A stretch of DNA of 64,000 nucleotides from Sneathiella sp. P13V-1 (GCF_015143595.1 NZ_WYEU01000001.1:1240001-1304000); one strand, 5' to 3'. Counted from the stretch's first letter, positions 9,915 to 39,898 are shown. Numbers and translations: made by a program. The notes: a model not told the origin generated them from the sequence alone.

Positions 9915-9933
9915 CACTTACTGAATAATCAAA

Positions 9934-14100: not shown

Positions 14101-17100
14101 GATGTTCCGGTTATCACGGGCATTGCGACCGGAAATATCGGAGAAGACGGCCCCCTTACGGCTGCTGGTAAGCTGGATATTGTAGATCTGGATGCGGGTG
14201 AAAGTGCCTTTGTTGCAGGCACTGTGAACGGTACATTTGGCGTGTTGACTATTGATGCGGCGGGTAACTGGACCTATGACGCTTCTGGTAATGCAGCCCT
14301 TGAAGCCTTGGGTGCTGGCGATGTGGTGACGGATGATGTGCAGGTAAGATCCGTTGACGGAACCATTAAAACCATCACTATTACAGTGACAGGAAGCGAC
14401 AGCGAAGCTGTGATCAGTGGAGTTGATACGGGCACTATTACAGAAGATGCCGTTGTGAGCGCATCCGGCAAACTTGATGTTACCGACAAGGATAGCGGCG
14501 AAAGCAGCTTTGTTGCAGGCACAGTCACAGGTGTTTACGGTGCACTTGCCATTGATGCATTGGGCAATTGGACTTATGAAGCTAATAATGCCTCTTTGCA
14601 GTCACTGGGTGCGGGCGATGTTGCTGTTGAAAATCTAACAGTTCAAACCGCAGATGGCAGCACACATGTGATTGCCATCAGTCTGGAAGGCGCAAATGAT
14701 GCCGCCGTTATTACAGGCAGCAGCACTGGTCTGGTTGAGGAAGATGGCAACCTCACTGCAAATGGTAAGCTGGATATTACAGACGCGGACCAAGGTGAAG
14801 CGGCCTTTGAAGCGGGGACAGTGGTTGGCGCTTACGGCTCCGTTGAAATCGATGCAGTAGGTAACTGGACCTACACAGCCAACAATGGCGCTAATATGCA
14901 GGCGCTTAATACCGGCGATGTTGCAACAGATACGCTAACCGTTCACGCTCTCGACGGTACGGCGCATCAGATTAATATTGCTGTGACTGGTCAGGATGAA
15001 CCGGTGGATCCCGGAACAGGTGACGTAATTATCGTTTCCACTTCTGAGGAGCTTTTGGCTGCACTTAAAAACGCTGAGGGCGGAGAAGAGATCCAGTTGA
15101 TGCCTGGTGAATATGGGCGGGTTGACATAATGAACCTGGCACCAGCTCAGCAGGTTACTATCTCAGCTTTTGATGATGCAAATCCACCAACATTTACACA
15201 GTTTGTAATCAGTAATTCACATAATTTGACCATAGATAACGTGGAAGTCAGACCGCTAGATGTTCCCCCAGTTTATATGGACAAATATCTGATGCTAATT
15301 GATGGCGGAAGTAACATTGAGATAACAAATTCCCTTATTCAAGGGGATCCATCAATTGACTACGCTCATTTCGCAGGTGTTTTCTATCAAAATACGACGG
15401 ATGTGGAGTTTTCTGGAAATGAGCTGAGATATCTTGAGCGTGGTGCCATTTTTAATGGGGTAACCAGAGCCGACATAACAGAAAATAATGTACATTCAAA
15501 TACAATGGACGGATTTAACTTTGTACAGGTTAAAGATCTTCTCATTGAAAAGAATCTGTTCCATGAATTTTATCCGGCAGAAGGAGTTCATCCGGATTAC
15601 ATCCAATTCTGGACTACAGGATCGACCGAATCCTCTGAGAACGTGATTATTCGTGATAATCAAATGTATCAATCTGAAGGTGGATTTACTGAAAGTATAT
15701 TCATGCGAGATCAGCTTGGAAATATGCCTTACAAGAATTTCCTTATTGAGAATAATTTGATTTATCAAGAGCATTATCATGGAATCACTGTAATGAATGT
15801 TGAAGGCTTTGATATCCTTAACAATACAGTGATATCCCAGACAGATACTTCTCAACTAGTTGCCATTCGTGTTCTCGAAGGAAACGATGTCACTATTGAA
15901 GGAAATATAACAAGCAAGCTGGTAACAGAAGGAATCACAGAATTAACTGTTGATAATAATATTATTGCCACGAAAGACGGCCTCTATGGATCGGAAAAAT
16001 ATGAAGATATTTTTGTAGGATCTCTCGAAAAAGCCTCTATGGATCCGTCTCTTTTTGATACATTTGGAAGTATCGCTTCCGGTGCAGATGTTGATATTTT
16101 CGTTAATTCAGACCTTGAGCATATCGGCTCTGGACTAAGTGATGTTGTATTCGGTGAAGATACAAATGACACAATTTTTGGTTTTAGAGGGGACGATACG
16201 CTCTACGGTGAAGCTGGAGATGATCTACTAGTTGGCGGTGCAGGGCGTGATATCCTGTTTGGCGGTGAAGGCGCTGATACGTTCCTTTTTGAGAAAATAG
16301 ATGATGGTGGAATTTCTTCAGATACCATTGCCGATTTTAATGCCAGTATGGATAAGGTTAGTTTTGAAGGACTTGCCGATATCCCACTTGAATATGTCGG
16401 GAGCAGTGAGTTCAACGCTGTTGATTTTTCTACTAAAACTGCAGAAGAGTGGTTCGATATCGCCTCAAATCAATATCCGAGTGGTGGCACAGAGGTAGAA
16501 GTCCCTGACCTAACCTCAAATGGTAGTGAGTTTACGATTAGTGCAACCTATTTTGTCAATGAACTCAAGACGACTTCCCAGACTATTCTGTGGAAGGAAG
16601 GCCATTTTGGTATCGTTACAAAGAACGAGTATCTCTTCATTGCCCTTCGAAACCAATCTGGCGGAATGGATTACATAACTGTCAATGGGGTGATGTCTCC
16701 TGGAGAGTGGCATGATACTCAAATTGTAGTCAACGGAGATCAGCTAGAGATTGTTTTTGATGGAACATCTGTCTTCGCAGGAGATGCCACAAAGTACGAT
16801 TTGTTTGCTGATGTTGATCAGCCAGTTTTTGCAGGTGCTAAACAATATGGAAGCGAACTGGATGGTCAGGTTGCAGATGTTTCATTCGTAGATCGTGCGT
16901 TGGATCTTTCGGAGCAAGCAACTCTGCTAGAAAGAACGACCGATATTGATGATCAGGATCTATGGGAGCACATGAATTTCTCAGAAGGATCTGGCGAAAT
17001 TAGATTTGATGACCAAACAAATATGCTACAAGTTGATCTGGATGGTGATACGAAAATTGATTTCGAGGTTGAAATGCTTGGGGTTCAATCATCAGACTTG

Positions 17101-17124
17101 AATTCAGAATCGTTCATTTTCTAA
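11140..17124 (+). CDS. Giant type I-secreted LamG/VCBS/beta-helix/RTX protein, putative polysaccharide-modifying enzyme
   Basis: This 1994-residue protein has no N-terminal signal peptide. Order: two LamG-type beta-sandwich domains (about 26-167 and 221-361, each with GWHDIQV/GWHDVQV and a GEVADVS/GDIADVS end); nine VCBS-like units of about 100 residues (391-1286); a right-handed beta-helix (about 1296-1648) with HPDYIQFW (1484-1491) and HYHGI (1545-1549); four or five RTX nonapeptides (about 1664-1718, GGAGRDILFGGEGADTF); a third LamG (about 1788-1928); and a C-terminus with VDLDGD, IDFEVEMLG and terminal SFIF, typical of type I secretion signals. It should leave the cell through the ABC/HlyD pair at 33937-37365, fold with calcium and bind or modify polysaccharide. 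Catalysis is inferred. The start is ATG 11140; TTG 11107 is less likely. Confidence 0.85.
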   Translation: MSVTLSQTEQDFLNQASQDFGNGVVNLGRSANLFGMNSFTLSVTLNLNSLSGGNQRVLWNHTQYGIVVNNDDLQVALRGADGNLNYYTVPNAFDATGWHDIQVVYDDTSDALKLYVDGEEVYSTITSDVDISEPSYWDVTAGGTLWGDMLDGEVADVSILDTAEEIDPSQSLVERMMTLDETDTASKIEVAAPDTTPTTEPKTQEELLAEAAVEFGDGTVSLGNDPSLFNLDDLTISATFSLDTLSGGKQMLVHSQGQYAVYVYRDDLFVRFRDENGKQIRTRIRDAFEETGWHDVQVTVDKAANALNIFLDGDLLLTKSANWIELGVGTNYGVTAGGNQWGNELQGDIADVSIHSEALDVDSSLSLYDRMYALDDGNLAPKYEVPSENTAAVIGGEDTVFMAEDDLAVSGKLSIEDADAGEALFAAGTYAAAHGQLVLDADGNWTFVPDSASLQSLGEGDTATDTVTITSVDGTEHTITVTFEGSNDVPVITGVASGSVAEEGPLSTSGKLDIADVDAGESAFVAAAVDGVYGTLVIDADGNWSYNASGNAELAALGAGENAIDAITVKTVDGTSQLIAINVTGSDSQAVISGVDTGVIEEDGARHASGKLDVVDADAGESSFVASSVEGNYGVLSIDAAGNWSYSIVNQAAVEAMSEGDVAVETLTVETLGGASHQISIELRGSNDAAEITGSSSAQLVEDGDLSASGKLDIADVDAGEAAFVAGSTGGTYGNLVIDAAGNWTYTAATTAAVQALAAGEIATETFTVESLDGTAHTLTMTMEGTNDTAVISGVAVGSVAEDGPLTTSGKLNVSDVDTGEGAFEAAALSGTYGTLVIDAEGNWSYSATETEALQALSASDSVAEAITVRSLDGTEQVITITVSGSDSEAVITGVDTGLVVDDGTPTVSGKLDVTDEDAGQSAFVADTIDGDLGTLVIDAAGNWIYQANESTALSALGAGETLTDTVQVLTVGGTSHTITITLEGTDDVPVITGIATGNIGEDGPLTAAGKLDIVDLDAGESAFVAGTVNGTFGVLTIDAAGNWTYDASGNAALEALGAGDVVTDDVQVRSVDGTIKTITITVTGSDSEAVISGVDTGTITEDAVVSASGKLDVTDKDSGESSFVAGTVTGVYGALAIDALGNWTYEANNASLQSLGAGDVAVENLTVQTADGSTHVIAISLEGANDAAVITGSSTGLVEEDGNLTANGKLDITDADQGEAAFEAGTVVGAYGSVEIDAVGNWTYTANNGANMQALNTGDVATDTLTVHALDGTAHQINIAVTGQDEPVDPGTGDVIIVSTSEELLAALKNAEGGEEIQLMPGEYGRVDIMNLAPAQQVTISAFDDANPPTFTQFVISNSHNLTIDNVEVRPLDVPPVYMDKYLMLIDGGSNIEITNSLIQGDPSIDYAHFAGVFYQNTTDVEFSGNELRYLERGAIFNGVTRADITENNVHSNTMDGFNFVQVKDLLIEKNLFHEFYPAEGVHPDYIQFWTTGSTESSENVIIRDNQMYQSEGGFTESIFMRDQLGNMPYKNFLIENNLIYQEHYHGITVMNVEGFDILNNTVISQTDTSQLVAIRVLEGNDVTIEGNITSKLVTEGITELTVDNNIIATKDGLYGSEKYEDIFVGSLEKASMDPSLFDTFGSIASGADVDIFVNSDLEHIGSGLSDVVFGEDTNDTIFGFRGDDTLYGEAGDDLLVGGAGRDILFGGEGADTFLFEKIDDGGISSDTIADFNASMDKVSFEGLADIPLEYVGSSEFNAVDFSTKTAEEWFDIASNQYPSGGTEVEVPDLTSNGSEFTISATYFVNELKTTSQTILWKEGHFGIVTKNEYLFIALRNQSGGMDYITVNGVMSPGEWHDTQIVVNGDQLEIVFDGTSVFAGDATKYDLFADVDQPVFAGAKQYGSELDGQVADVSFVDRALDLSEQATLLERTTDIDDQDLWEHMNFSEGSGEIRFDDQTNMLQVDLDGDTKIDFEVEMLGVQSSDLNSESFIF
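12310..14997 (+). repeat. Nine tandem VCBS-like repeats of about 300 bp within the giant gene
   Basis: The conserved GKL codons begin at 12370, 12667, 12967, 13267, 13567, 13867, 14167, 14467 and 14764, so the units are 300 bp, with two of 297 bp. Each unit encodes SGKLDI-D-DAGE, then GTLVIDA-GNW-Y, then T-DG-H-ITI. Alternate units look more alike (GSDSEAVI versus G-ND--VI endings). They form an extended beta-rich stalk between the LamG pair and the beta-helix. Confidence 0.9.
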
Positions 17125-17157
17125 TTTGTTTAGTTGCATCAACTGGGCTGAGGAAAA

Positions 17158-17658
17158 ATGCCTAAGAAAAACAGACCACGTTCCTTTAAGTTGAGTTTGA
17201 ACCGATTGTCTTATCTTAGAAAGCTACTGGTTGGGGCAAAGAGGGCGTATCTAACAAAACTATGGAAGATGGATATACATCCGACGTGCGAGCTTTCATT
17301 AAGTGCGAAATTTGACACAACATATCCCGCAGGGGTGCATATAGGCGAGTATTCTTATATTGCTTTCGAGGCTAGAATATTGTGCCATGATTTGACCCGA
17401 GGGCTTTATGCACATACGAGAATAGGTAAAAACTGCTTTATTGGTGGCAGAAGCATGATAATGCCAAATGTGACAATTGGTGATGGATGTATTGTAGGTT
17501 CTGGCGCAATAGTGACAAAATCAGTGCCAGATAACTGCATAATTGCAGGAAATCCCGCCAAAATAATTTCAAGAAACATTAAAACTGGTAGATATGGCAA
17601 ATTGGATACAGCCGACGAAACAACACATCGACTGATAGCAGAAGGTGAGATCGTCTGA
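17158..17658 (+). CDS. Hexapeptide-repeat acyltransferase (WcaF/LbetaH family)
   Basis: The 166-residue protein carries a left-handed beta-helix made of hexapeptide repeats (about residues 55-135: [40 protein letters not shown]). It ends with the family's NPAKII cap. Such enzymes transfer acetyl or other acyl groups from acyl-CoA to sugars. His in ILCHDL is a plausible catalytic residue. It starts 33 bases after the giant gene, with AGGA before the ATG, and probably shares its transcript. The polysaccharide gene neighbourhood suggests O-acetylation of a repeat-unit sugar. It ends directly against the convergent pyruvyl-transferase gene with no intervening terminator. Confidence 0.8.
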
Positions 17659-18984
17659 TCAAATTTGCTTTCTAAACTTGTTTAATAGATAAAAATATAT
17701 TCCTCCGAGTGATTGTGTGTTTTTAGTAAATTTAAACAAAAATCGCTTTAGAGAATTGGTTACACCTTCTATTTCTGATCTGTCTAGTTTGCATATTTCT
17801 TCAACCAACTTAGTGATATCGATTTCGCTGCTCCTGTTCGGGGTGGGAGATCGTAACTTTGTAATCAGTTGATGAAAATCGTTTAAAGCCCTTTGCTTTG
17901 CTTTATCGCTTAGCTCGTGCATATTCTGTTTAATGCAATTGTCGAAATGGTTGCTGATTTCGCTTATGTTATATGCTGTGATATTCGGGATTCTCAGGGC
18001 TTCCATGACACTATTGTGTTTTCCCTTTGCTCCTTTTCCTAGAAGAGCAAACGGCTTTGCGAATGACAGTGCGACAACCCCTCCGTGAAGGCTCGAGCCA
18101 ACATATCCCGCGCATCCTTCAAATAATGAGGTGGTTTGGAGAACATCGAGTTTTTTTTCAACAATGAATGCGTTTATTCCTTTCTGCTTTAGTATCTTCT
18201 TTGCTGATTTCAGAACGATGAGGTCGTGTAGGAAGAGGCAAATGGGAAGTAGTAGTATTTCGGCATCTAATTTACGTGCAATTTTCCCAATCTCGTCGCA
18301 CCATTCACTAAGATCGTTTTGCAGGTATGGAAGAGAAATCTGGGCTAACAGATATTTTTTACCCTTTAGTTCCAAAGGTAAACAATTGTCAGCTGTTTTC
18401 TGCCAATATTCAGCGGACCATAGATCTGAACTTAATAGAACAGGGTCGGCGGCAAGATCAGAATGGCAGTTTGCTTTTTCCAGTTTAATTCTTGAGTGAA
18501 TGTCACGAACTGAAATGTAAGAGCATCGGCTTAACATATGTCCAATGTTTGATTGGATCTTTTCCGGCATCGCTTGTGCTCCGACGCAATGAAAAGAAAT
18601 GTGAGGGCGGCTTTTTTCGGAAAGAGAAATTAGCGGAGCTAACCAGAGTCTAAGACTATGACTGAATGTTTCTTTAGGGAGTATGTAAGTGCCCAGACCG
18701 TGACCTATAGAAAGCGTTTCCCCTCCCGCAAGAATGTACGCATCTAAATCATGGAAAGCTGAAGCTGCTTTTTCCCGCGTATCGGGTAAAGAGGTGATAC
18801 TATCCAGTTTTACAATTTCCGCTAACTCTCCGGTTGGGGAGTAATACTTAATTACTGTATTGGGGTGGAATCTGGACAGTAATTCTCTGTAAATTACAGG
18901 AAACAAGCAATCGCCATAGTTGTTTACGTCAAACGTTCCGGCTATACCTACTGTAAAACTAGATTCTATCAATTTGCTTTTCAT
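17659..18984 (-). CDS. Polysaccharide pyruvyl transferase family protein
   Basis: The 441-residue product matches the pyruvyl transferase family: N-terminal GIAGTFDVNNYGDCLFP, an ILAGGETLSIGHGLG glycine loop near residue 110, VRDIHSRIKLE, and the C-terminal SSLHGGVVALSFAKPFAL signature. These enzymes move a pyruvyl group from phosphoenolpyruvate to a sugar hydroxyl, giving an acidic ketal on exopolysaccharides (CsaB, WcaK and GumL are members). The C-terminal 100 residues are a less conserved helical extension. Its start overlaps the flippase stop by four bases (ATGA), so the two genes are translationally coupled. Base composition is clearly AT-richer than in the flanking housekeeping genes. 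Confidence 0.82.
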   Translation of the reverse strand: MKSKLIESSFTVGIAGTFDVNNYGDCLFPVIYRELLSRFHPNTVIKYYSPTGELAEIVKLDSITSLPDTREKAASAFHDLDAYILAGGETLSIGHGLGTYILPKETFSHSLRLWLAPLISLSEKSRPHISFHCVGAQAMPEKIQSNIGHMLSRCSYISVRDIHSRIKLEKANCHSDLAADPVLLSSDLWSAEYWQKTADNCLPLELKGKKYLLAQISLPYLQNDLSEWCDEIGKIARKLDAEILLLPICLFLHDLIVLKSAKKILKQKGINAFIVEKKLDVLQTTSLFEGCAGYVGSSLHGGVVALSFAKPFALLGKGAKGKHNSVMEALRIPNITAYNISEISNHFDNCIKQNMHELSDKAKQRALNDFHQLITKLRSPTPNRSSEIDITKLVEEICKLDRSEIEGVTNSLKRFLFKFTKNTQSLGGIYFYLLNKFRKQI

Positions 18985-20384
18985 TTTTTAGTTCCAAGCC
19001 TTGGTAGGTGTTTTATTGTTGTTGCGTAAATTGCCAATGAAAAACAGAGCAATATTACTACTGACAATAGTCTGTACCCAAATTCATCAATCATGTTGAA
19101 AGCAAAATAGGTAAGCAGAGAAAACACTATGTAGATTAATGGGTTGAAGGTCTGCTGAAAGAAAGAGGTGCTTCGATTTGCAAGTCGGTGGAAAACAATT
19201 TTTCCGTAAAGTATCGATAAAACTTCTCCGGCGCAGGAGGATACAATAATTGTTTCCAGTTTGCCGGTTATCATAACCGCTGGTAAGCCTATTACTAAAC
19301 CGCTGAGCCGTACTACTGCCATGTAGAGGGTGAGTTTTGACAAGCCTAAACCTAGAAATATAGTGTTATAGTTTGCTCGAATAACGCGTAAAGATTGATA
19401 GATGCAGATCGAAAATATGAGTGTGTTGCTAACAGTAAAATCGTTCCCATAAAAAAGAACAGTTATATCGGTTAAGAGTAAAACGGAACCGATGAGCAGA
19501 GAAACAGATATTAGATAGTGAAAGTTGGTGGTTAGGGGAAGTGTATTATTCGTGTCTGCTTCTTGTGACATTGAGTTGGAGGTGACAGACAAGAATAAGG
19601 GCTGCACTACACTGATAAGGATTGAGCAACCCAGAAAAACAATTCCAAAAGGTGCGCTAAACCTGCCAAACTCTTCTAAAGAAAAAAAGCTACTTATAAG
19701 CAGTTTGTCTCCGTTAACAATGAGGCAAAAAAGCATACCATTTAGTATCAAAGGCCAACCAAAATTCCATATCTCGGTCAAAGTAGATTTTTGGGGAACC
19801 ACAGAATATCGTTGATTTGATACAATGTGCGAAGTGATGGCGAAAACAAAAGCTTGGCTAATGGAGGCAACAATAACGGACTTATAGTCAGCAGAATACA
19901 CAAAAGAGAGATATAGTACTGGGATAGCTATCAATTGAGATGCAAGTCCACAAATCACCACCGGAACAAACTTCATTTGCTTTTGTTGGAAGAAGATTTG
20001 ATGGTGGACGAGACTTCTCGCTATTGGAATGCAAGCGAGCAAATACAGACCCGTCGAATATTCTATCATATTCATAAGGTGCGCCCATAGAGGCACTGTA
20101 ACTATTATCAAAACTGCGCTTGCCACTCCTTTTGCCAAGCTCACAGAATGTACAGTCGATAAGAATTTGCTCTCAAACACTCCTTTTTTCTGGATGATGT
20201 AACGATCAAGTCCAATATCAGAAGCCAATTCAATTATTGCTATAATGAGTGCAAAGATAGATGCGGCTCCGTAGTCTTCAACACCAAGCAGGCGAGCCGT
20301 CAGCACATTCCGGAAGAATCCGAACATTGAACTTAAGGTATTGCCGAAAGCGAGTGTAAATCCGCCTTTTAGGAATAGGGACAA
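18981..20384 (-). CDS. Polysaccharide flippase (Wzx/MOP superfamily)
   Basis: The 467-residue product has about 12-14 membrane segments and begins with the typical flippase pattern: GGFTLAFGNTLSSMFGFFRN, then TARLLGVEDYGAASIFALI. This places it in the oligosaccharide-flippase branch of the MOP exporters. These move lipid-linked repeat units from the cytoplasmic to the periplasmic face of the inner membrane. The start is uncertain: the TTG at 20384 has only a weak upstream AGGCG, and no better start is visible. It is the first gene of a two-gene unit with the pyruvyl transferase and diverges from the polymerase gene across 134 AT-rich bases. Confidence 0.83.
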   Translation of the reverse strand: MSLFLKGGFTLAFGNTLSSMFGFFRNVLTARLLGVEDYGAASIFALIIAIIELASDIGLDRYIIQKKGVFESKFLSTVHSVSLAKGVASAVLIIVTVPLWAHLMNMIEYSTGLYLLACIPIARSLVHHQIFFQQKQMKFVPVVICGLASQLIAIPVLYLSFVYSADYKSVIVASISQAFVFAITSHIVSNQRYSVVPQKSTLTEIWNFGWPLILNGMLFCLIVNGDKLLISSFFSLEEFGRFSAPFGIVFLGCSILISVVQPLFLSVTSNSMSQEADTNNTLPLTTNFHYLISVSLLIGSVLLLTDITVLFYGNDFTVSNTLIFSICIYQSLRVIRANYNTIFLGLGLSKLTLYMAVVRLSGLVIGLPAVMITGKLETIIVSSCAGEVLSILYGKIVFHRLANRSTSFFQQTFNPLIYIVFSLLTYFAFNMIDEFGYRLLSVVILLCFSLAIYATTIKHLPRLGTKK

Positions 20385-20518
20385 ATTTTTACGCCTAGCC
20401 AGTAGAAGAAAAGGAAACTATTAAGTAATCAGAGGTTATGTTTAGATGAATTGTCTTAACAAAAAAACTAGTTGTATCAATTTGTTTGCATTGAAAAAAG
20501 CAAAAGTAACTAAACCCT

Positions 20519-21844
20519 ATGCTCATTGAAACTATTGCGATAGCCGTTCTACTCAGTCTGATAGTTCTCTATGTAAAACCTGGGACAGCTTTGGCAATTG
20601 TACTCGCTTCTACGTTATTGTGGCCAGAATATCTAAGGATACCTATGGGGCCAGCCTTAATGTCTGTGTCCAGAATTCTAGCTTTAGTTCTGTTTACAAA
20701 GTTCCTGTTAAACGGCCGATTCCGCGGCATGAGAGGTAATCTAGCAGATGTGTTGATGCTAGTGTATTGGGTTTGGTTACTTGCTGCGAATATCATTGAA
20801 AATCAAAGTCTAGATTATCTGACACGAGCAATTGGAGAACTATTGGATTTGATCTTGATTTACTTTGTTGCTCGTTTGAGTCTGCAAAGGGAAGTCGATT
20901 TCAAACAACTCGTTGTCGTATTGTCTGTTTTGGCCATTTACATAGGAGCATTGGCGGCATATGAGGCTGTAACAGGCTCAACTTTCTACAAGCAGTTTCT
21001 ACAGTATCGTCCTTGGGTTACTGTTTTTGGTGAAGTTGAAATTGAAAAAAGATTGGGGTTTTATAGAGCAACAGTAAGTGAATCTATTCATATCTACTTC
21101 GGGATTACCATGTCGATAATTGGGGGATTACTCGTCACGTTACATACAATGACGAGGAAGAAACTGCTAACTCTTGTCGGCATTGCGTTCGCGTATTTGG
21201 GAGTTGTAAGCAGTTTTTCTACAGGTCCTTGGATTGCAGCCCTATCATTCTTGTTGTTCAGACAGATGAAAAATCATACTGCAAAAATAAAGCCTCTTCT
21301 TCTGACCGGGCTAGCATTACTGTCAATACTTCATCTGATTTCGGAAAGAGGTATTCATTATGTTGGAAGTTACCTAGGGTTAAACTCAGCAACGGCTTGG
21401 TATCGCGGGAGGCTAATTGATGTCGCTTTTTCTGAACTCGGTTCATATTGGCTGTTTGGATATGGTAGCAATCTCCCTCACTATTGGGGAGGTATGGTAG
21501 ATGGCAGGCCAATTATTGATATTGTAAACCATTACATTCTGGTTGCGGTATATGGTGGCTTGATGGCTTTGGTTCTGTTTCTCTCAATCACATGGTTGGC
21601 ATACAGAAACATATTCAAATTAAAGCTCCATACACTACCAAAAAAAGAGAGATATGTTGGTTTCTCATTGATCGCTATTTTGTTTTCTCTCAATGTTGCC
21701 ATGCTTTCCGTGAGCTTCTACGACACGCCAAACAAGTACTATTTTGCTTTACTTGGGATCATGATTAGCTATCCATATATGGTGAAGAAAGAAGTCAAAA
21801 TGAAAAGGATAGCTTACGAGTTTAAAGAGAAGCATGATGACTAA
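20519..21844 (+). CDS. O-antigen polymerase/ligase family membrane protein (Wzy-like)
   Basis: The 441-residue integral membrane protein has about 10-11 hydrophobic segments. A large periplasmic loop near residues 145-190 contains RPWVTVFGEVEIEKRLGF. FSTGPWIA at about 235 and WYRGRLIDVAF plus LFGYGSN at about 290-320 follow the pattern of the O-antigen ligase/polymerase domain. In a Wzx/Wzy locus without lipopolysaccharide core genes, polymerisation of undecaprenyl-linked repeats in the periplasm is the likely role. A ligase cannot be excluded. Its 3' end overlaps the next gene by 11 bases, so the three + strand genes here form one transcription unit. Confidence 0.82.
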   Translation: MLIETIAIAVLLSLIVLYVKPGTALAIVLASTLLWPEYLRIPMGPALMSVSRILALVLFTKFLLNGRFRGMRGNLADVLMLVYWVWLLAANIIENQSLDYLTRAIGELLDLILIYFVARLSLQREVDFKQLVVVLSVLAIYIGALAAYEAVTGSTFYKQFLQYRPWVTVFGEVEIEKRLGFYRATVSESIHIYFGITMSIIGGLLVTLHTMTRKKLLTLVGIAFAYLGVVSSFSTGPWIAALSFLLFRQMKNHTAKIKPLLLTGLALLSILHLISERGIHYVGSYLGLNSATAWYRGRLIDVAFSELGSYWLFGYGSNLPHYWGGMVDGRPIIDIVNHYILVAVYGGLMALVLFLSITWLAYRNIFKLKLHTLPKKERYVGFSLIAILFSLNVAMLSVSFYDTPNKYYFALLGIMISYPYMVKKEVKMKRIAYEFKEKHDD

Positions 21845-22325
21845 AACAGTTCTTGCAATAGCTTCAGCCGGGGGGCATTGGGTTCAGTTGCAGCGGTTAA
21901 GGCCTGCATGGGATGGGTGTCACGTCATATACGTGACGACTAAGCAAGGATACTATTCCCAGGTAATAAAAGATGCCGAAGCTCGCAACCAGACGAACGT
22001 TAAGTATTTTTGTGTTCAAGATGCGAATAGGTGGCAAAAATTGAAGTTGTTGCACCAACTTTTTCAAATCGGTTGGATTATTCTAAAGAACAGACCTAAC
22101 GTTATTATTTCAACCGGGGCGGCTCCAGGATTTTTTGCGCTGAAAATTGGCAAATTGCTAGGAGCAAAGACAATTTGGCTTGATAGCATTGCAAATGCGG
22201 AAGAACTCTCACTATCAGGTGAGAAGGTCAGTACTAGCGCAGATTTATGGCTGACACAGTGGCCAGAGTTGGCCGGTAAAATGGCGAAAGAGAGAAAAAC
22301 AAACCAGCATATCGAGGAAAAGTAA
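21834..22325 (+). CDS. Alg14/PssD-like glycosyltransferase subunit (membrane-anchor half)
   Basis: The 163-residue protein is the N-terminal half of a split GT-B enzyme. It shows IASAGGHWVQLQRLRPAW at the start, a hydrophobic anchor near LFQIGWIILKNRPNVIISTG, and APGFFALKIGKLLGAKTIW. In Alg13/Alg14 and in rhizobial PssD/PssE, this half binds the membrane and the acceptor lipid-sugar, and the partner half binds the nucleotide sugar. The partner follows one base downstream. Start ATG 21834 overlaps the polymerase stop; ATG 21837 is an equal alternative. It probably adds the second sugar to the undecaprenyl-diphosphate-linked primer. Confidence 0.8.
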   Translation: MMTKTVLAIASAGGHWVQLQRLRPAWDGCHVIYVTTKQGYYSQVIKDAEARNQTNVKYFCVQDANRWQKLKLLHQLFQIGWIILKNRPNVIISTGAAPGFFALKIGKLLGAKTIWLDSIANAEELSLSGEKVSTSADLWLTQWPELAGKMAKERKTNQHIEEK

Positions 22326-22326
22326 T

Positions 22327-22821
22327 TTGATTTTTTTGACACTTGGAACACAACTGCCCTTCGAGCGGTTAGTAAGAGCAATGGATAGCTGGTGCGCACA
22401 GAATCCTAAAGAAACAGTGTTTGGTCAAATTGCATCTGTTGAAGAAGGGAGTTATGAACCCAAGAATTTTAAGTGGGTGGAGTTTCTGGAGCCGGATGAG
22501 TTTTCCAAAATGTACGAAGAGTCGAAACTGGTTGTTGGACATGCAGGCATGGGTACAATTATCACAGCTTTAGTCCAAGCGAAGCCACTGCTTATTATGC
22601 CAAGAAAAGCGTCTTTGGGGGAACATCGCAATGACCACCAAATGGCTACCGCGCAAAAGTTTCAAGATCGACAATTAATTACAACAGTTTTTGATGACGC
22701 GTTTTTTGATGCAGGTATGATGGATGCAATTGGAGGGTTAGATCACGAACGGAACTCCGAAAGCGGGAAGTTCGCAGATGATAGTCTGATTGAAGAGATA
22801 AGGCACTTTATACATAGCTGA
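22327..22821 (+). CDS. Alg13/PssE-like glycosyltransferase subunit (catalytic half)
   Basis: The 164-residue protein begins MIFLTLGTQLPFERLVRAMD. It carries VVGHAGMGTIITAL and KPLLIMPRKASLGEHRNDHQ, the nucleotide-sugar binding signature of the Alg13 half of split GT-B enzymes. It works with the product of the preceding gene, which supplies the membrane anchor. The start is a TTG, with GAGGAAAAG upstream at reasonable spacing; no ATG is available before the conserved TLGT. It ends seven bases from the convergent AsnB gene. Confidence 0.8.
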   Translation: MIFLTLGTQLPFERLVRAMDSWCAQNPKETVFGQIASVEEGSYEPKNFKWVEFLEPDEFSKMYEESKLVVGHAGMGTIITALVQAKPLLIMPRKASLGEHRNDHQMATAQKFQDRQLITTVFDDAFFDAGMMDAIGGLDHERNSESGKFADDSLIEEIRHFIHS

Positions 22822-22827
22822 TGTCCA

Positions 22828-24723: not shown

Positions 24724-24724
24724 G

Positions 24725-25624
24725 TTAGCTTTGTCTCCAATATTTGACTGGGTCCACAACTTTTTCGGGTTGTAGTAGCAACCGTAACATTAATTGTGCA
24801 CGAAACCACCTGCACCAAAATAGCACATGAATTGCTTTTAACTTATATCTAATCTTACTTACACGATCGCTTCGAAGTGCTTTAATGGTATGAACAAAAG
24901 GAGATGCAATGACCGCAAGGATCAAAAAGATCCAGATATAGAAAAAGTGCTCTTGAGGCCTTAGTTCATTGAACTTCATAACTGTTTGACGGCCCCATTT
25001 CTCTCTCAGTTCACAGAATTTTTGTCGTCCTGGATGGAAAACCAAGCAATTCTTGTTAAACGAAAAACTAGCGCCAGCTTGTGCAGCTCTTCGGCACCAG
25101 TCGGTGTCTTCAGCAACGAATTGTCTGAACTCACCAACTTCCCTAAATAAAGATGAACTCGTCCACAGATTGCCGGTCGCTCCGTCTTTTCTCGCGGCAC
25201 ATTTCTCCTGATCCATTAAAAAAATCATTTCGAATGCTTCAACACTGTTGGGGGTAGGGTGATGGCTATAAATTATGACATCCCCCAGCATCACATGGTG
25301 AACGGGTAAGGCTTGAATTTCCCTAATGCCAGTGTTGACAAAATTTGGATCAAGTAAGCAGTCGCAATCGGTGAAAGCCAGATATTTGCCTTTTGCTTCC
25401 TTTATGCCAGCATTTCTCGCAGCAGCAGCACCACGGTTTTTTTCAATTACTAGCTTTAGGTTAAAATTATATTTTTCGAATTCAATGTTGAAGTCTGTGC
25501 TACCGTTATCGCACACGATGACTTCAAACTCGCAAGCGACATTTTTTTGGCTCGAAATAGACTTTAAGCAAAGCTCAAGATTCTGCTGATCATTGATATG
25601 CGGGATGATGATGCTCAAATCCAT
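24725..25624 (-). CDS. Family 2 glycosyltransferase
   Basis: The 299-residue protein has a GT-A fold: LSIIIPHINDQQNLELCLKS at the start, VCDNGSTD near residue 40, NRGAAAARNAGIKEA, the DxD-type metal site FTDCDCLLD near 92, and AEDTDWCRRA for the acceptor side. One or two hydrophobic segments near residues 230-250 may tether it to the inner membrane. It uses a nucleotide sugar to extend the lipid-linked repeat unit on the cytoplasmic side. It directly precedes the AsnB-like gene. Donor and linkage cannot be predicted. Confidence 0.82.
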   Translation of the reverse strand: MDLSIIIPHINDQQNLELCLKSISSQKNVACEFEVIVCDNGSTDFNIEFEKYNFNLKLVIEKNRGAAAARNAGIKEAKGKYLAFTDCDCLLDPNFVNTGIREIQALPVHHVMLGDVIIYSHHPTPNSVEAFEMIFLMDQEKCAARKDGATGNLWTSSSLFREVGEFRQFVAEDTDWCRRAAQAGASFSFNKNCLVFHPGRQKFCELREKWGRQTVMKFNELRPQEHFFYIWIFLILAVIASPFVHTIKALRSDRVSKIRYKLKAIHVLFWCRWFRAQLMLRLLLQPEKVVDPVKYWRQS

Positions 25625-25681
25625 AGAGTTTCTACTTCAATTGTCGGCGATAGGATAGCTTGTTCAAATTGCATGATACCT

Positions 25682-26605
25682 TTAATAACCTTTGAGCCAG
25701 CTAGTCTTTTGTTTCCACACTTCATGCCATTGAGATTGTTTCTTAAAAGTTAAAAGGGCAGCAAATTTTCGCACGGTTATCCAACAGAAGAACAGTAACA
25801 GCCCGATCGGCGCGCTAACACTGCTCCAATGATCTTTGATTAAGGAGATGCGAGCTTTAGAAACAAGGACCGTCTTGTCAGCTCTGTTTTTAGTTGATGC
25901 CCCTACCAAATGCATGATTTGTGCATCTGGGGTGATCATGGGCTGATAACCTTCTTTTTGGGCGCGCAGGCAGAGGTCAGCTTCCTCACCATACATGACA
26001 TATTTAAGGTTAAATCCGCCAAATTCGCGCCAAAGATCAGTTTTCAGCATAAAAAAACAACCACTTACGATATCGACCTTGCGAACGGTATCTCTTTTCC
26101 AGCCTCCGATGGCCTCAGTGTTAAAGAGGGGAGAGTTAGGGAAAATCGCAGTCAGTCCAAATGCGTGACAGAACATGCTCCACGGGGTGATCTTCATCCA
26201 GCAGGAAGCAATATTCAAAGAGCCGTCTGGAAAAACTGTGCGGCCGCCTGTAATTCCTGCTTCCGGATGTTTTTTTGAAAACTCCAGAAGATTATCGATC
26301 GCGCCAGGATGTGTTTCTGTATCTGGATTTAAAAGAAGAAGCCATTCACTAGACACATTTTCTGCAGCCAAATTGTTTGCTTTTGCAAATCCCAGATTTT
26401 CTTCGCATCTAACGAGTTTCACTTGCGGGTAAGCCGCTGCGACTGCGTCCGCGGATCCATCGTGAGAATCATTATCCCAAAGGATAACTTCGAAATTGGT
26501 GTGTTTGGTGTTTTGATAAAGAGTTTCCAGGCATTTAAGCGTCAGTTCTCGGGTATTGTAACTGACAATAATGATACTGAGCTCTGCATTTTCGCTTTTG
26601 GTCAT
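25682..26605 (-). CDS. Family 2 glycosyltransferase, rhamnosyltransferase-like
   Basis: The 307-residue GT-A enzyme shows LSIIIVSYNTRELTLKCLE, ILWDNDSHDGSAD, NLGFAKANN, the metal site LLLNPDTE and MYGEEADLCLRAQKEGY. This pattern is typical of the rhamnosyltransferase/WcaA-type subgroup of family 2. A hydrophobic segment near residue 265 suggests membrane association. It is the first gene of a - strand unit with the other GT2 and the AsnB-like gene. A 245-base gap separates it from the divergent PrsT gene and should hold both promoters. Confidence 0.83.
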   Translation of the reverse strand: MTKSENAELSIIIVSYNTRELTLKCLETLYQNTKHTNFEVILWDNDSHDGSADAVAAAYPQVKLVRCEENLGFAKANNLAAENVSSEWLLLLNPDTETHPGAIDNLLEFSKKHPEAGITGGRTVFPDGSLNIASCWMKITPWSMFCHAFGLTAIFPNSPLFNTEAIGGWKRDTVRKVDIVSGCFFMLKTDLWREFGGFNLKYVMYGEEADLCLRAQKEGYQPMITPDAQIMHLVGASTKNRADKTVLVSKARISLIKDHWSSVSAPIGLLLFFCWITVRKFAALLTFKKQSQWHEVWKQKTSWLKGY

Positions 26606-26850
26606 TGAATTGATACGCTTACGGGCTGGAATGTGGTTTCTGCTCTATGCTATATATGATGCTATTGTTAAACAAAGATTTATTCTATGTTTGGGGGAAA
26701 GGGGCGCGGTTTTTTAACTTCCTCTTCAGGTTTATCCCCTTAAGTTGTGCGTTCTTTGTGACACACGGTATGGCAGTTTGTTTCGTCATAAAGCAGTATC
26801 CGGTACTTCCTCATTAACTTTGGACAAAATAAAAAGCGTTGGCGGGATCT

Positions 26851-29271
26851 ATGAAAAAAATGGTTAAGGGCAATCTGGGGCGGAAAACACTCATTCCTCT
26901 ACTTGTTGGAACAGCAATGCTGGGACTTGCTGCGTGTGATTCCCCCGAGGAAAAAGCGCAGGCCTATTATCAAAACGCTGTTCAGCTTTTTGAAGAAGAA
27001 AATTACGAGAAGGCCGGACTCGAGTTCAGAAATGCGCTGCAGCTGAACGAAACGATTGCAGATGCCTGGTATCACCTAGCTCTTCTGGAAGAGAAGGCTG
27101 GCAAAGTACGTGAATATGCAGGGGATTTGTTCAAGACTGTTGAACTGGATCCAAACCATGTGCCGGCGCAGGTGCGTATCGGCAAATTGATGCTGTTCTC
27201 AGGCCGTCTGCCGGAGGCTGAAGAGAAATCCAACATGGCCATGCGTCTGGACCCTTCGAACCCCGATGTGTGGTCCTTGCGGTCAGCGCTTCTACTGCGT
27301 CAGGAACAACATGAAGAAGCCACGAAAGCGGCGATGAAGGCGCTTGAGCTTGAAGCCGGTCATGTGGAAGGGTCGCTTATTCTGGCAGCGCAAGCTCTGA
27401 CAAAAAAAGATGCTGAGACCGCGATCAAATATGTTGAAGAGGCATTGAAAATCCATCCAGACAATGTGTCTTTGCATTTGACCAAAATGCGTTCTTTGGA
27501 ATCCGTTGGGGATTTGGATGGTATTGAAGCCGTTTTTAGAACGCTGATTGAACAGAATCCGGATAATCGCGAGTTCAGAAATAACCTAGTTCGTTTCTAT
27601 CTAACGCGGGATGAGAAGGGCAAGGCGGAAGCAGAGGTACGCAAGATCGTTGCGGATAATCCAGATGATCAGGATGCGAAAATTGATTTGATCCGCTTCC
27701 TCCAGGTGGTGAACGGAACAGACGACGCCATTGCCGAACTTGATAAAATCATTGCCGCCAACCCAAGCGGGTACGTGTATCAACTTGCCAAAGCGGAACT
27801 GGTTCTCTCAACAAGGGATGTTGCTGGGGCAAAAGAGATTCTCAATCAGGTTATTCAACAGGCAGGAACTGAAGAAGATGGTCTTAGTGCGCGTGTGAAT
27901 TTGGCAGAGATGTTGTTGAGAGAACAGGATCGCGCTGGGGCGGAAAAGCTGATTGAAGAGACTATTGCGGCTGATCCTTTTCACACTAATGCGCTTTTGA
28001 TCCGCGCCGGTTTGAAACTGGATGACGGTAAAGTAGAAGACGGCATCACAGATCTTAGATCTGCGTTGAAGGATCAGCCGGATTCGGTCCAGGCAACATT
28101 ATTGTTGGCCCGTGCCCACGAAATGAACGGCGCGGTAGAGCTTGCGGAAGATCGTTTTGATGCAGCTTATAAAATCTCCAACGCTGGTGCGCTGGCTTCT
28201 ATGCAGTATGCTCAGTTCCTGGGTCGGCGCGGTGAATATGAACGTGCCGAGGATATCTTGAAAAGAGCCCTGCGCGCTTCTCCACGTGATACAGGGCTGC
28301 TAACCGCGTTGGCGCAGGCAAAACTCATTCAAAAGGACTGGGACGGCGCTGCGGAGGTTGCGGAACAGTTACGCAAGCTGGATAAAGACAATGTGGTGTC
28401 TGACCAGATTCTTGCGCGTTCTTACGCAGGGCAGCAGGATTTCGATAAGAGTATCGAGAGTTTCCGTCAGGCTTATGAAAATGTACCAAACGGGGCCAAT
28501 ACCATTGTCTCCTTGGTGAGGCTCTATATGTCTCAGGGAAAGCCTGAAGAGGCTGAGAAATTCTTGAGAGATATTGTGGCACAGGACCAAGGGAATTTAC
28601 CTGCCCGTATCCTGTTGGCGCAATTGCTCATCGTGCTGGACCGGGAAGATGAGGCGGTTCAGGAATATGAAAAACTGGTCGCCGAAGCGCCAAAAGAGCA
28701 AAATGTCTACTACACATATGTCACCTATAAAATCCGCAAAAAAGATTTTGAGGGTGCAAAGACTGTGTTGGATAAAGGGCGTGCCGTACTGCCCGAAAGC
28801 TTCACGCTGTTGCTGACTGAAGCTGGTATTTATGAACTTCTAAAAGACTATCCAAAAGCCATTGCTGTGTATGAAGAAGCATTGAAAACTAGACCGAATT
28901 CGGATGTCGTAGCAAATAATCTGGCAAGTCTGATCTCTCAGGTTTATGACGATGAAGAAAATCTGCGTAAAGCGTACACTTATGCGAAGCGCTTCCGGTC
29001 TTCTACAGTGCCACATTTTCAGGATACTCTAGGGTGGATCCATTATCGCCTGGGTGAATACCAACTTGCAGTGACGCTTTTGGAAGATGCGGTGGAGAAA
29101 GCACCTGACTTTGGGCTTTTAAGGTATCATTTGGGGATGTCTTATAAGGCACAAAATGACAAAAAACAGGCGATTGAACATTTGAGCAAAGCCGTTGAGA
29201 TTGCGAAACAACGGCCGTTTGAAGAGGCAAAAGAGGCCCAAAAAGCTCTTGATGCCTTGAAAGCGTCTTAA
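26851..29271 (+). CDS. prsT: PrsT-like PEP-CTERM/exosortase system TPR lipoprotein
   Basis: The 806-residue product is a lipoprotein: the signal peptide ends in the lipobox LGLAAC with Cys29. It then consists almost entirely of TPR repeats (over 20 helical pairs, for example AQAYYQNAVQLFEEENYEKAG and AIAVYEEALKTRPNSDVVANN). Length, lipobox and position match PrsT, the TPR protein that accompanies exosortase/EPS loci. It is expected to sit on a periplasmic membrane face and scaffold export, like the PelB/BcsC/AlgK TPR proteins (family-level inference). ATG 26851 was chosen; TTG 26839 and ATG 26860 are alternatives. It heads the + strand unit with the ATPase and the beta-helix protein. Confidence 0.82.
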   Translation: MKKMVKGNLGRKTLIPLLVGTAMLGLAACDSPEEKAQAYYQNAVQLFEEENYEKAGLEFRNALQLNETIADAWYHLALLEEKAGKVREYAGDLFKTVELDPNHVPAQVRIGKLMLFSGRLPEAEEKSNMAMRLDPSNPDVWSLRSALLLRQEQHEEATKAAMKALELEAGHVEGSLILAAQALTKKDAETAIKYVEEALKIHPDNVSLHLTKMRSLESVGDLDGIEAVFRTLIEQNPDNREFRNNLVRFYLTRDEKGKAEAEVRKIVADNPDDQDAKIDLIRFLQVVNGTDDAIAELDKIIAANPSGYVYQLAKAELVLSTRDVAGAKEILNQVIQQAGTEEDGLSARVNLAEMLLREQDRAGAEKLIEETIAADPFHTNALLIRAGLKLDDGKVEDGITDLRSALKDQPDSVQATLLLARAHEMNGAVELAEDRFDAAYKISNAGALASMQYAQFLGRRGEYERAEDILKRALRASPRDTGLLTALAQAKLIQKDWDGAAEVAEQLRKLDKDNVVSDQILARSYAGQQDFDKSIESFRQAYENVPNGANTIVSLVRLYMSQGKPEEAEKFLRDIVAQDQGNLPARILLAQLLIVLDREDEAVQEYEKLVAEAPKEQNVYYTYVTYKIRKKDFEGAKTVLDKGRAVLPESFTLLLTEAGIYELLKDYPKAIAVYEEALKTRPNSDVVANNLASLISQVYDDEENLRKAYTYAKRFRSSTVPHFQDTLGWIHYRLGEYQLAVTLLEDAVEKAPDFGLLRYHLGMSYKAQNDKKQAIEHLSKAVEIAKQRPFEEAKEAQKALDALKAS

Positions 29272-29358
29272 AAAAGTAGTTACCGGTCGTTATTTGTTAA
29301 CAGATCAACTATATAGCTGGAAGAAGATTTCGTTTGAAGGCGATCGGTAAACCAACTC

Positions 29359-30291
29359 ATGTATGAAGAGTTTTACGGCTTAGAAAACAAGCCTTTTTCA
29401 ATCCAACCAGACCCCGATTTTCTATATTGGGGCCGCACCCATTCTATGGCTTATGCCATGTTGGAGTATGGGGTGATGAACCACGCGGGTTTTACTGTTA
29501 TTACCGGTGAGATCGGCTGCGGGAAAACAACACTTATTCGTCACCTCCTTAATCGTTTGGCGGATGAGTATACGGTTGGATTGGTCTCAAATATTCAAGG
29601 GGGAGAACTCCTTCAATGGGTTCTGTCCGCCTTTGATCAGCCATATGATGGGCTTAGCCAGGTTGCCTTACATGATCGTCTGCAGGATTTTCTAATCGAG
29701 CAATATGCGCTGGGAAAAAGAACGATATTGATCGTTGATGAGGCTCAAAATCTTGGCCCAAAATTGTTGGAACAACTGCGCTTGTTGTCCAATATTAATG
29801 CCGATAGCGATCAACTGTTACAGTTGATCCTGGTGGGGCAGCCGCAGTTGAAAGATCTTCTTCAGTCTCCAGAGTTGATCCAGTTTGCACAGCGTGTTGC
29901 ATCTGACTTTCATGTGGTGCCACTGAGCTTGGAAGATGTGAAAGATTACATCAAGCACCGTTTGGAAGTCGCGGGACGACATGAGCCGTTATTTACCGAT
30001 GTAGCGTGTGAACATATTCACGAGGCAAGTCGGGGAGTACCACGTATCATCAATATTCTATGTGATACTTGTCTTGTGTATGGTTTTGCTCAGATGTCGG
30101 AAGAAATCGACAGTAGTATTGTCGATGAAGTCATTGAAGACAAAAAAGAACATGGCGTTTTCAAGCTGGGGGAAAGCGTCTCCGCACCCAAGACGGCCCC
30201 GATAGAGATCCGGGAATCCGAGGAAGAGGCTGCCCTTATCATCCGTGACAAAGATCTAGCCAAAATGTTGTTGGAGAAATTGCAGGGTTGA
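29359..30291 (+). CDS. ExeA-like AAA ATPase of exosortase/EPS systems
   Basis: The 310-residue protein begins MYEEFYGLENKPFSIQPDP, the classic opening of ExeA/GspA-type ATPases. It has Walker A GEIGCGKTT (residues 50-58) and Walker B LIVDEAQ (124-130). SRGVPRIINILCD is the C-terminal sensor region. This matches the ATPase regularly found beside XrtA/PEP-CTERM exopolysaccharide genes, whose exact mechanism is unknown. It probably powers assembly of the envelope export complex from the cytoplasmic side. The last 50 residues are charged and less conserved. Its stop overlaps the region just before the beta-helix protein start. Confidence 0.85.
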   Translation: MYEEFYGLENKPFSIQPDPDFLYWGRTHSMAYAMLEYGVMNHAGFTVITGEIGCGKTTLIRHLLNRLADEYTVGLVSNIQGGELLQWVLSAFDQPYDGLSQVALHDRLQDFLIEQYALGKRTILIVDEAQNLGPKLLEQLRLLSNINADSDQLLQLILVGQPQLKDLLQSPELIQFAQRVASDFHVVPLSLEDVKDYIKHRLEVAGRHEPLFTDVACEHIHEASRGVPRIINILCDTCLVYGFAQMSEEIDSSIVDEVIEDKKEHGVFKLGESVSAPKTAPIEIRESEEEAALIIRDKDLAKMLLEKLQG

Positions 30292-30305
30292 CCGCTGGAG
30301 GGTGT

Positions 30306-31583
30306 ATGACTGGTTTCAAAGTGGCTCTAGTTGTTGGGCTTTTTTTATTCTCCACCTTTGCCAATGCAAAAGATATCTATGTTGACCCCTCCGCCACGTC
30401 GGGGGGAGATGGCAGTCAAGCACATCCTTTTAATGATCTCAAACGGGTCGTAAAATCGGGTTCCATAATGGATGGAAGGCTTTATTTGGCTCCGGGGAAT
30501 TATGGAAATTTGGTAATTTCTAAAAAAGTGCCATCTCAAGGCGTAGAGATTATTTCCATACAAAAACACCAAGCCGTGTTTTCTAGTATAAAAATACTTT
30601 CATCAAAAAACTGGAAAATTGATGGCGTGAAAGTACGCTACGATAGTGAAACACCAAAAAAAGTTAAGTATCTAGTGGAAGTTGGATACAATTCAAGAAA
30701 CATTACTGTTCAGAATGTACTTGTCACCTCTTCCGAAAATATTGAAGCTTGGAACAAAAGTGATTGGAATAATAAAACAAAATCTGGAATTGGTTCTTAC
30801 GCGCCAGGAGTGAAGATTCTTGATAATATTGTCGAGAATATTGACTTCGGTATTCTAGCGCTGGGCCAGAACTCGGTGGTCTCAGGAAACTTAATAAACC
30901 ATTTTTCTGGAGATGGGTTGCGTGGGTTAGGAGATAATTCACTGTTTGAAAAAAACGTGGTGAAGAATTGCCATGCTGTGAATGACAATCATGATGACGG
31001 TTTCCAATCCTGGTCTCTTGGAGACGATCTTAAATCTGGTGGTGGTGTTATCCGAAATGTCAGCCTGAGAGATAACTTATTCATTGGAAATGAAACTGAG
31101 GATAATTCACCCAAATGTTACATGCAGGGAATAGGACTTTATGATGGTATGTATGAGGGATGGGAAATATCAAATAACATAGTTGTCGTAGACCATTGGC
31201 ATGGCATTATTGTGGCTGGTGCTAAAAATGTCAGAATAACGAATAACACTGTGTTTGACCCAACAGGCCGAAAGCCGGGACCAGCGTGGATCAGAGTTGA
31301 AGACCATAAGAACGGTAAGAAATCCACAGGTAATCTGGTTGCCAATAATCTCGCAAATTCGTTTCAATTTCCCGATGGGGGTGTTCTGCAGTTACAGAAC
31401 CAGATTATCCGAAATCCACATTTATTATTTGTCGATCCGGATAATCATGATTACCGCCTAAAGCCAGGCGCCCGGGCGATCGATGCCGGGATGGATGGCG
31501 TTGGGCCCAAGGTTGATTTTTATGGCAATCCCCGACCATCTGGTGAGAAAACCGATGTAGGGGCGGCTGAGTTTGTGAAGTAA
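30306..31583 (+). CDS. Sec-exported right-handed parallel beta-helix protein, putative polysaccharide lyase/epimerase-like
   Basis: The 425-residue protein has a signal peptide (TGFKVALVVGLFLFSTFANA). Its beta-helix starts with DIYVDPSATSGGDGSQAHPF, the usual entry of polysaccharide-active beta-helices. The coils carry NDNHDDGFQSW (H229, D231, Q234, W236) and HWHGI (H297, H299), then VRITNNTVFDP, with a DVGAAEF end. These motifs line up with HPDYIQFW and HYHGI of the giant protein at 11140. Cleavage or epimerisation of the nascent polysaccharide in the periplasm is plausible, as for AlgG or AlgL in alginate loci. Actual chemistry is unproven. GGAGGG lies just before ATG 30306. It abuts the convergent barrel gene with three bases between stops. 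Confidence 0.8.
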   Translation: MTGFKVALVVGLFLFSTFANAKDIYVDPSATSGGDGSQAHPFNDLKRVVKSGSIMDGRLYLAPGNYGNLVISKKVPSQGVEIISIQKHQAVFSSIKILSSKNWKIDGVKVRYDSETPKKVKYLVEVGYNSRNITVQNVLVTSSENIEAWNKSDWNNKTKSGIGSYAPGVKILDNIVENIDFGILALGQNSVVSGNLINHFSGDGLRGLGDNSLFEKNVVKNCHAVNDNHDDGFQSWSLGDDLKSGGGVIRNVSLRDNLFIGNETEDNSPKCYMQGIGLYDGMYEGWEISNNIVVVDHWHGIIVAGAKNVRITNNTVFDPTGRKPGPAWIRVEDHKNGKKSTGNLVANNLANSFQFPDGGVLQLQNQIIRNPHLLFVDPDNHDYRLKPGARAIDAGMDGVGPKVDFYGNPRPSGEKTDVGAAEFVK

Positions 31584-33047: not shown

Positions 33048-33077
33048 GAATAAACTCACCTGATAAATCAGAGGATC

Positions 33078-33710
33078 CTAGAACCAGCTCTCTGGAATAA
33101 TGATAATGTCACCAGGTAGAAGGGGAACATTCGCGGAGACGTCACCATCTAGCAGAAGATCATCGAGCCTAATCCGATAAGATTTTTCCTGCCCGTTTTC
33201 TTTCCTCACGATGATAGACCGATTGCCAGCAGCAAATTCAGTAATACCGCCAACTGCAATCATGGCATCAAGAAGTGTCATCCGGTCATTAAAAGCGATA
33301 GCCATTGGTTCTACCGCCTGACCAACAATACGAACCTGTCGGGAGTAGGGGCCTGCAAATCGTGTAACAGAAACGGTTACGACGGGATCCACAATATAGG
33401 CGGTCAGCTTCTGAGCAATTTCCTTACCCAGCTCTTCTGGTGTCTTTTGTGCCGCGACCACATCTCCAATAAGAGGCGTAGAGACTTTTCCGTCCGGACG
33501 CACTGGAACGGTGACGGAAAGATCGGGGTTTTGCCAGACGAAAACCTTTAATTCGTCTCGGGGACCAATGACGTAGTCCGGCGTCTCTTTCAAGGTTGCC
33601 GGAGCGGAGCCAGCAAGTTCCGGCGGTGTGGCGCAAGCGGCCAGCAGAAATACGCTGAGCGCGGCCAGCAGGCTTGCGCCCGTTTTAATAATTGAACGGT
33701 TATTTTTCAC
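33078..33710 (-). CDS. Wza/EpsA-like polysaccharide export lipoprotein (exosortase-associated type)
   Basis: The 210-residue lipoprotein has a lipobox FLLAAC (Cys26). It contains a polysaccharide export sugar-binding domain (YVIGPRDELKVFVWQNPDLSVTVPVRPDGK...) followed by one SLBB domain (RQVRIVGQAVEPMAIAFNDRMT...), and ends LLPGDIIIIPESWF. At this length it is the short form typical of exosortase-linked EPS loci, lacking the C-terminal transmembrane helix of E. coli Wza. It should form the periplasmic/outer-membrane part of the polysaccharide exit channel, working with the adjacent barrel protein and the Wzz-like protein. GGGAGG precedes the start. It diverges from the type I transporter gene. 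Confidence 0.87.
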   Translation of the reverse strand: MKNNRSIIKTGASLLAALSVFLLAACATPPELAGSAPATLKETPDYVIGPRDELKVFVWQNPDLSVTVPVRPDGKVSTPLIGDVVAAQKTPEELGKEIAQKLTAYIVDPVVTVSVTRFAGPYSRQVRIVGQAVEPMAIAFNDRMTLLDAMIAVGGITEFAAGNRSIIVRKENGQEKSYRIRLDDLLLDGDVSANVPLLPGDIIIIPESWF

Positions 33711-38978: not shown

Positions 38979-39070
38979 TTTTTAGTCCTTATTCGTTAGC
39001 TCATTTTTATTACTTTATACTAAACCATAACCGCATTGAAAATCACATAAACTTGCACTCGTAGATGTTG

Positions 39071-39889: not shown

Positions 39890-39898
39890 CTCTCTCTC

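Follow-up and report, generated by a model that had tools for sequence, protein, structure and literature searches.

The giant protein G and the Sec-exported protein S of the marine bacterium Sneathiella sp. P13V-1 share a homologous β-helix domain. We hold with moderate confidence that the two domains are old branches of an unclassified family of right-handed parallel β-helices that acts on the exopolysaccharide of an XrtA locus, S in the periplasm and G outside the cell. Both proteins are encoded in one stretch of 64,000 nucleotides (GCF_015143595.1 NZ_WYEU01000001.1:1240001-1304000), hereafter the window, from whose first letter all positions are counted.

Protein G is encoded on the forward strand (11107..17124), with a TTG start at 11107 and an alternative ATG start at 11140. 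It consists of LamG domains, nine VCBS/cadherin-like repeats, a β-helix domain (residues 1304-1672; 15016..16122), RTX calcium-binding repeats (16126..16230) and a C-terminal LamG domain; no signal peptide was found in G. Protein S (30288..31583, forward strand; 431 residues) is a single-domain protein without any other module. The ATG at 30306 (residue 7) is its likelier start, and its Sec signal peptide, which runs to 30365, ends with TFANA-KD. The combination of RTX repeats, no signal peptide and exporter genes nearby that marks RTX type I secretion substrates was found for G only. Two different export routes had been claimed by the initial annotation: S indeed carries a Sec signal peptide, and G, which has none, combines RTX and LamG domains with a PrtD/HlyD exporter nearby.

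Both genes reside in an exosortase (XrtA/PEP-CTERM-type) exopolysaccharide locus. Its reverse strand encodes a polysaccharide pyruvyl transferase (17659..18984), a Wzx-type flippase (18981..20384), a PEP-CTERM-associated outer-membrane protein with a polysaccharide export protein (31587..33710), and an exosortase with DUF3485 together with a ParA-like ATPase, Wzz, an acyltransferase and an initiating sugar transferase (37419..44069). The forward strand encodes a pair of PssD-like and PssE-like glycosyltransferases of the glucuronosyltransferase type (21834..22821, scoring below curated cut-offs), an XrtA-system PrsT-like TPR protein and an XrtA-associated ATPase directly upstream of S (26839..30291), and a PrtD-type permease/ATPase with a HlyD-type adaptor (33937..37365), the candidate type I exporter of G. 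The gene of S starts at, or adjoining, the end of the ATPase gene. The PssD/PssE-like transferases also resemble the glucuronosyltransferase WelK, again below curated cut-offs, and two genes of the UDP-sugar-dehydrogenase family are found elsewhere in the genome, so that a uronate in the polymer is plausible. The genes at 1344-10713 of the window (CoA-transferase, TPR, enoyl-CoA hydratase and neighbours) stand beside G in other species too (L087, L092, L096); being common to several species, they would mark a shared left boundary of the locus.

Sequence comparison indicates that the helix domains of S and G are homologous, beyond the mere sharing of motifs. They are 26% identical over 268 aligned positions (~260 residues; BLASTP, E=7e-14), and a search of the genome with S returned S and G as the sole matches. 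Profile-profile comparison of the S family (31 members) against the G family (15 members) gave a probability of 99.9% over 307 columns, and still 99.4% after both profiles had been cut to the core.

Two motif pairs had drawn attention to the proteins. In G, HPDYIQFW (15589..15612; H1495, D1497, Q1500 and W1502, on strand 194-199 of the model) is followed by HYHGI (15772..15786), and in S, HDDGFQSW (30990..31013; H235, D237, Q240 and W242) is followed by HWHGI (31194..31208), all on the forward strand. All four starts were verified, as was the spacing of 61 residues in G and 68 in S. The proposed common pattern H-x-D-x-[IF]-Q-x-W stood for motif 1: coded as CAYNNNGAYNNNWTNCARNNNTGG (H-x-D-x-[hydrophobic]-Q-x-W), it has exactly two occurrences in the genome of 3.7 Mb, namely the G and S sites, and its reversed control has none. 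Motif 2, proposed as H-[YW]-H-G-I, had to be narrowed to the second His and the Gly (H1558 and G1559 in G, H305 and G306 in S). H1556 is not conserved; the relatives of G read Q-S-[GA]-[YF]-H-G at this site, hence the first His of HYHGI is private to the G of the window. The matching I-x-NNTV coil is present as claimed, but it belongs to an invariant Asn ladder on successive coils (N1483/N223, N1518/N263, N1550/N297, N1573/N320 and N1600/N354) and is thus structural and uninformative on function. A third conserved position, overlooked by the initial annotation, lies in the coil between the motifs, at Q280 of S (31125..31127) and E1529 of G (15691..15693, both forward strand). Nearly all S and G relatives carry Gln at this position, and the window's own G carries Glu.

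We ranked conservation in a joint alignment of 46 relatives by Jensen-Shannon divergence over 345 scored columns, giving S and G equal weight. The rank was 1 for H235/H1495, 2 for H305/H1558, 4 for Q240/Q1500, 7 for Q280/E1529, 8 for W242/W1502 and 21 for D237/D1497. One G subfamily (L018, L067 and L070, from genomes G004, G023 and G009) has Gln and His swapped between positions 1500 and 1558. Its motifs read HGDYIHFW with HQTI, or HGDNIHFW with HRQAI, with Met replacing the middle Gln, and its genes still adjoin a type I exporter and polysaccharide export genes. The swap hints that positions 1500 and 1558 act jointly. Separately, a protein of genome G008 (L090:3-2882) contains two tandem G-type helix domains, the second of which lacks the His and Asp of motif 1.

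AlphaFold2 predicted both structures confidently, with a pLDDT of 94 for S and 92 for the G helix. In both models, motifs 1 and 2 open strands of one sheet, two coils apart, with the middle-coil Gln position between them. D237, Q280 and H305 of S each lie two residues ahead of an inward hydrophobic residue on successive strands; the same register holds for D1497, E1529 and H1558 of G. By this strand register, rather than by side-chain distances, the conserved residues are predicted on the same face of the helix, in coils n, n+1 and n+2; the opposite outcome, residues on different faces, was not seen. The earlier proposal of one catalytic family therefore stands as one homologous family with conserved polar residues on the same sheet.

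The conserved residues might instead bind sugar or metal, the helix being a lectin-like module of a non-catalytic matrix protein, which we regard as unlikely. The remainder of G consists of binding or adhesin modules (LamG, VCBS), one subfamily has the 1500/1558 swap and no HG, and the second helix of the tandem protein has no motif 1, all of which fit such a role. On the other hand, H, H, Q, Q, W and D occupy the best-conserved columns, a set typical of a working site, and S has a single domain and no other module.

Profile searches did not place the S/G family in any of the known lyase or epimerase families among which the initial annotation had proposed to look. It belongs to the β-helix superfamily (Pfam PF13229/NosD), with a profile score above the cut-off, the parallel fold and the Asn ladder, and the only Pfam matches at a useful level were the generic Beta_helix/NosD models. 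Neither S nor G alone matched any PDB sequence, and profile searches of the PDB returned weak, generic β-helix matches, including GH110-type galactosidases and NosD. Structural similarity search with S revealed lacto-N-biosidases, PL6, PL9 (1ru4, TM 0.49/0.49), AlgE6/AlgE4 and RbmB. The G helix most resembles the alginate lyase PsAly (6kfn, TM 0.58/0.70), which we take to be PL31; AlgE6 (0.56/0.54) and RbmB (up to 0.52) are also among its fold matches. These TM-scores are modest (0.3-0.7 across the fold matches), and β-helices have a generic likeness to one another. Among the closest folds are enzymes of acidic polysaccharides, namely PL9, PL6, PL31, AlgE6 and RbmB.

A link to PL9 (Pel9A 1ru4, rhamnogalacturonan lyase 5olq) was considered because its ADGF/DDGFD stacking resembles GDGL/HDDGFQ of S, and was rejected. 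Compared with PL9 sequences taken from planctomycete genomes, the N-terminal cap aligns and is shared, whereas the core does not align. The Asp of the PL9 DDGxD calcium site is Gln here, and Gly or Phe stands in place of the Lys of G[FI]KLG; S has [DAS]DG[FI]Q and lacks the PL9 catalytic Lys in coil n+1. The Pel9A-like profile PF22842 matched none of the 31 S and 15 G members at E<=10, nor anything in 142 class genomes. PL6 is likewise a structural likeness, the Chondroitinase B/PL6 profile PF14592 having matched one member of 31 (E 0.0016).

A pair of C5-epimerases, with S as a periplasmic AlgG and G as a secreted RTX AlgE that alter uronates and leave the chain uncut, is somewhat less probable than the lectin-like role. 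The deployment matches closely: in the mannuronan C5-epimerases of Azotobacter, also a β-helix pair, AlgG is Sec-exported to the periplasm within the polymer locus and AlgE leaves by type I secretion with RTX repeats. AlgE likewise has a His-Gly two coils past its first site, since DPHE and R-H-G-F of AlgE4 (letters checked against the PDB) are two coils apart; a weak alignment puts RHGF opposite WHGI, and the fold matches of G include AlgE6. Nevertheless, the signature YGFDPHE/DPHD of AlgE and AlgG is absent from the S and G alignments, and by register D, Q and W take the places of Y149, D152 and H154. Profile-profile probabilities against AlgE were only 0.4-27%, which led us to reject the link, and an AlgE4 query at 1e-15 matched nothing in 289 class genomes. 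Nor did the scanned genes of the locus, which is Wzx-type, include an Alg8/Alg44-type synthase. As the catalytic cores of both PL9 and AlgE gave insignificant profile comparisons, the chemistry cannot be read from relatives; we infer that chain cleavage, by a lyase or hydrolase, is most likely and epimerisation less likely. That the motifs are generic β-helix ladders or a chance resemblance is very improbable: Asn ladders such as I-x-NNTV are indeed common to β-helix proteins, but H-x-D-x-x-Q and H-G do not recur from coil to coil and head the conservation ranking, the motif 1 pattern is found only twice in the genome, and the homology over the full domain is highly significant.

Other enzymes resemble the family in fold or in use. 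PsAly is, like the G helix, a small single β-helix, and was absent from the PDB sequence matches; its catalytic pair Tyr184/Lys221 (PMC6796002) has no evident conserved counterpart in S or G. RbmB of Vibrio cholerae is a polysaccharide lyase of the biofilm matrix cluster (PMC11637428), a β-helix enzyme whose substrate is the exopolysaccharide of that cluster. It is similar to G in fold (TM ~0.5) and was not among the PDB profile-search matches at E<=10. The PlyA and PlyB glycanases of Rhizobium leguminosarum are exported by the type I system PrsDE, have Ra/cadherin-like domains, with plyA beside prsDE, and govern the length of the exopolysaccharide chains at the cell surface (PMC5061743, PMC2275737). 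Unlike G, they are reported as non-RTX (PMC3034196). Their likeness to G lies in type I export and cadherin-like domains; one Rhizobium plasmid searched had no member of the S/G family. We know of no Sec-exported partner of PlyA or PlyB. Altogether, the S/G family is unclassified: by sequence it is neither PL9 nor AlgE, and PL6, PL31 and RbmB are fold neighbours only. By analogy, the best-supported comparison would be with AlgG/AlgE in deployment and with PlyA/PlyB or RbmB in purpose.

Relatives of S occur in Sneathiella (58% identity in S. glossodoripedis, L025) and further in deltaproteobacterial, myxococcal, planctomycete, verrucomicrobial and other assemblies; in other phyla, homologues of the locus machinery were found near them at a few loci only. 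An uncultured Demequina (Actinomycetota; L049:2219-5539) has two adjoining S-type genes with the motif HDD[GA]FQHF. The G-helix profile matched in 18 of 26 genomes of the taxonomic family, all within the genus, a count that includes matches to S. Besides the window, the surroundings of G were examined in G002, G003, G004, G005, G006, G008, G009, G012 and G021, and in all nine G stands beside exopolysaccharide or exporter genes. S lies inside the locus in the window, G002, G005, G006, G008 and G021, and elsewhere in G003, G009, G012 and G013; the two genes are within ~20 kb of each other in 6 of the 14 Sneathiella genomes that have both. The claim that both proteins act on the same polymer thus agrees with their shared locus here and is weakened by the genomes in which S lies outside it. 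The typical G helix is 31-37% identical to the window copy, similar to the Wzx/Wzy candidates (20-38%) and unlike XrtA, the polysaccharide export protein and PrtD/HlyD (56-80% across the same comparison), which is suggestive of G tracking the polymer.

Beyond the genus, members turned up in several further families of alphaproteobacteria when 385 class and 399 phylum genomes were searched with profiles, and many of these copies adjoin polysaccharide or exporter genes. Nearly all members retain motif 1, as does every member listed from the class and phylum genomes. The H-G of the second site is present in roughly half of the distant members, so motif 2 is not required family-wide. Members lie in plasmid exopolysaccharide loci of Alloyangia pacifica, Roseobacter litoralis, Dinoroseobacter shibae and Pseudorhodobacter turbinis, next to exosortases, glycosyltransferases, a nucleotide sugar dehydrogenase, sulfotransferases or type I exporters; the neighbours of the Roseobacteraceae plasmid members include exosortases, a nucleotide sugar dehydrogenase or a glucuronosyltransferase. 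On pDSHI04 of D. shibae (NC_009958.1), two helix domains at 3210-4316 and 62385-63491 (L154 and L157), in open frames of 1260 and 828 aa, have identical profile scores, which suggests a recent duplication; the plasmid also carries a third, distant helix domain. In P. turbinis, a Sec-type member (L150:11776-13040) is split into two overlapping frames of 179 and 250 aa and looks broken; a long member with LamG is encoded ~10 kb from it, close to a type I exporter.

Sec-type members are mostly single-domain, and signal-less members mostly have long C-terminal tails, often with RTX repeats. A tree of 70 rows separates the S clade from the G clade (support 100/99); they are old sister clades, and the tree rejects a recent S-to-G duplication inside Sneathiella. 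Sec-type members re-emerge within the G clade, and the well-supported branches imply at least four changes of export type, a type called approximately, by hydropathy, with some Sec rows being long branches. Pairs of Sec and non-Sec members in one region combine an S-clade with a G-clade protein in Sneathiella and Alloyangia, and are sister copies in R. litoralis (100/95) and in genome G683, an alphaproteobacterium (100/99). Such pairs of Sec and secreted members therefore recur in other biofilm-forming bacteria, partly through independent export switches.

In the mechanism that we propose for two branches of one polysaccharide-active family, probably a depolymerase, one sheet would line a cleft, to which coil n would contribute H-x-D-x-[I/F]-Q-x-W, coil n+1 a Gln and coil n+2 H-G, and a polymer chain running along the helix axis would be bound and attacked there. 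Within the periplasm, Sec-exported S would process the nascent polymer. G would be exported by PrtD/HlyD and fold on Ca2+ via its RTX repeats, and its LamG and VCBS/cadherin-like domains would hold it in the matrix, where it would trim or modify the mature polymer. The putative substrate, one polymer for S and G, is suggested by gene neighbourhood, and the individual residues are assigned their roles only provisionally.

Exosortase-linked exopolysaccharide loci are common, and to our knowledge no polymer-modifying enzyme has been assigned to them. β-Helix enzymes of exopolysaccharides are known as such; the S/G family and its recurrent paired export were not found in the literature searched. 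More tentatively, the family may be an unrecognised polysaccharide-active one with its own catalytic site (H-x-D-x-x-Q in coil n, Q in coil n+1 and usually H-G in coil n+2), common in alphaproteobacterial biofilm-polymer loci, in which pairs of Sec and type I members arose more than once by switching the export route, so that the same chemistry is applied before and after export. A signature family in exosortase loci, with members also carried on Roseobacteraceae plasmids along with exopolysaccharide genes, would give a direct handle on these loci, and the enzyme could serve to cleave the polymer for its characterisation. The Sec/type I pairs would offer a way to ask why the polymer is processed on both sides of the outer membrane.
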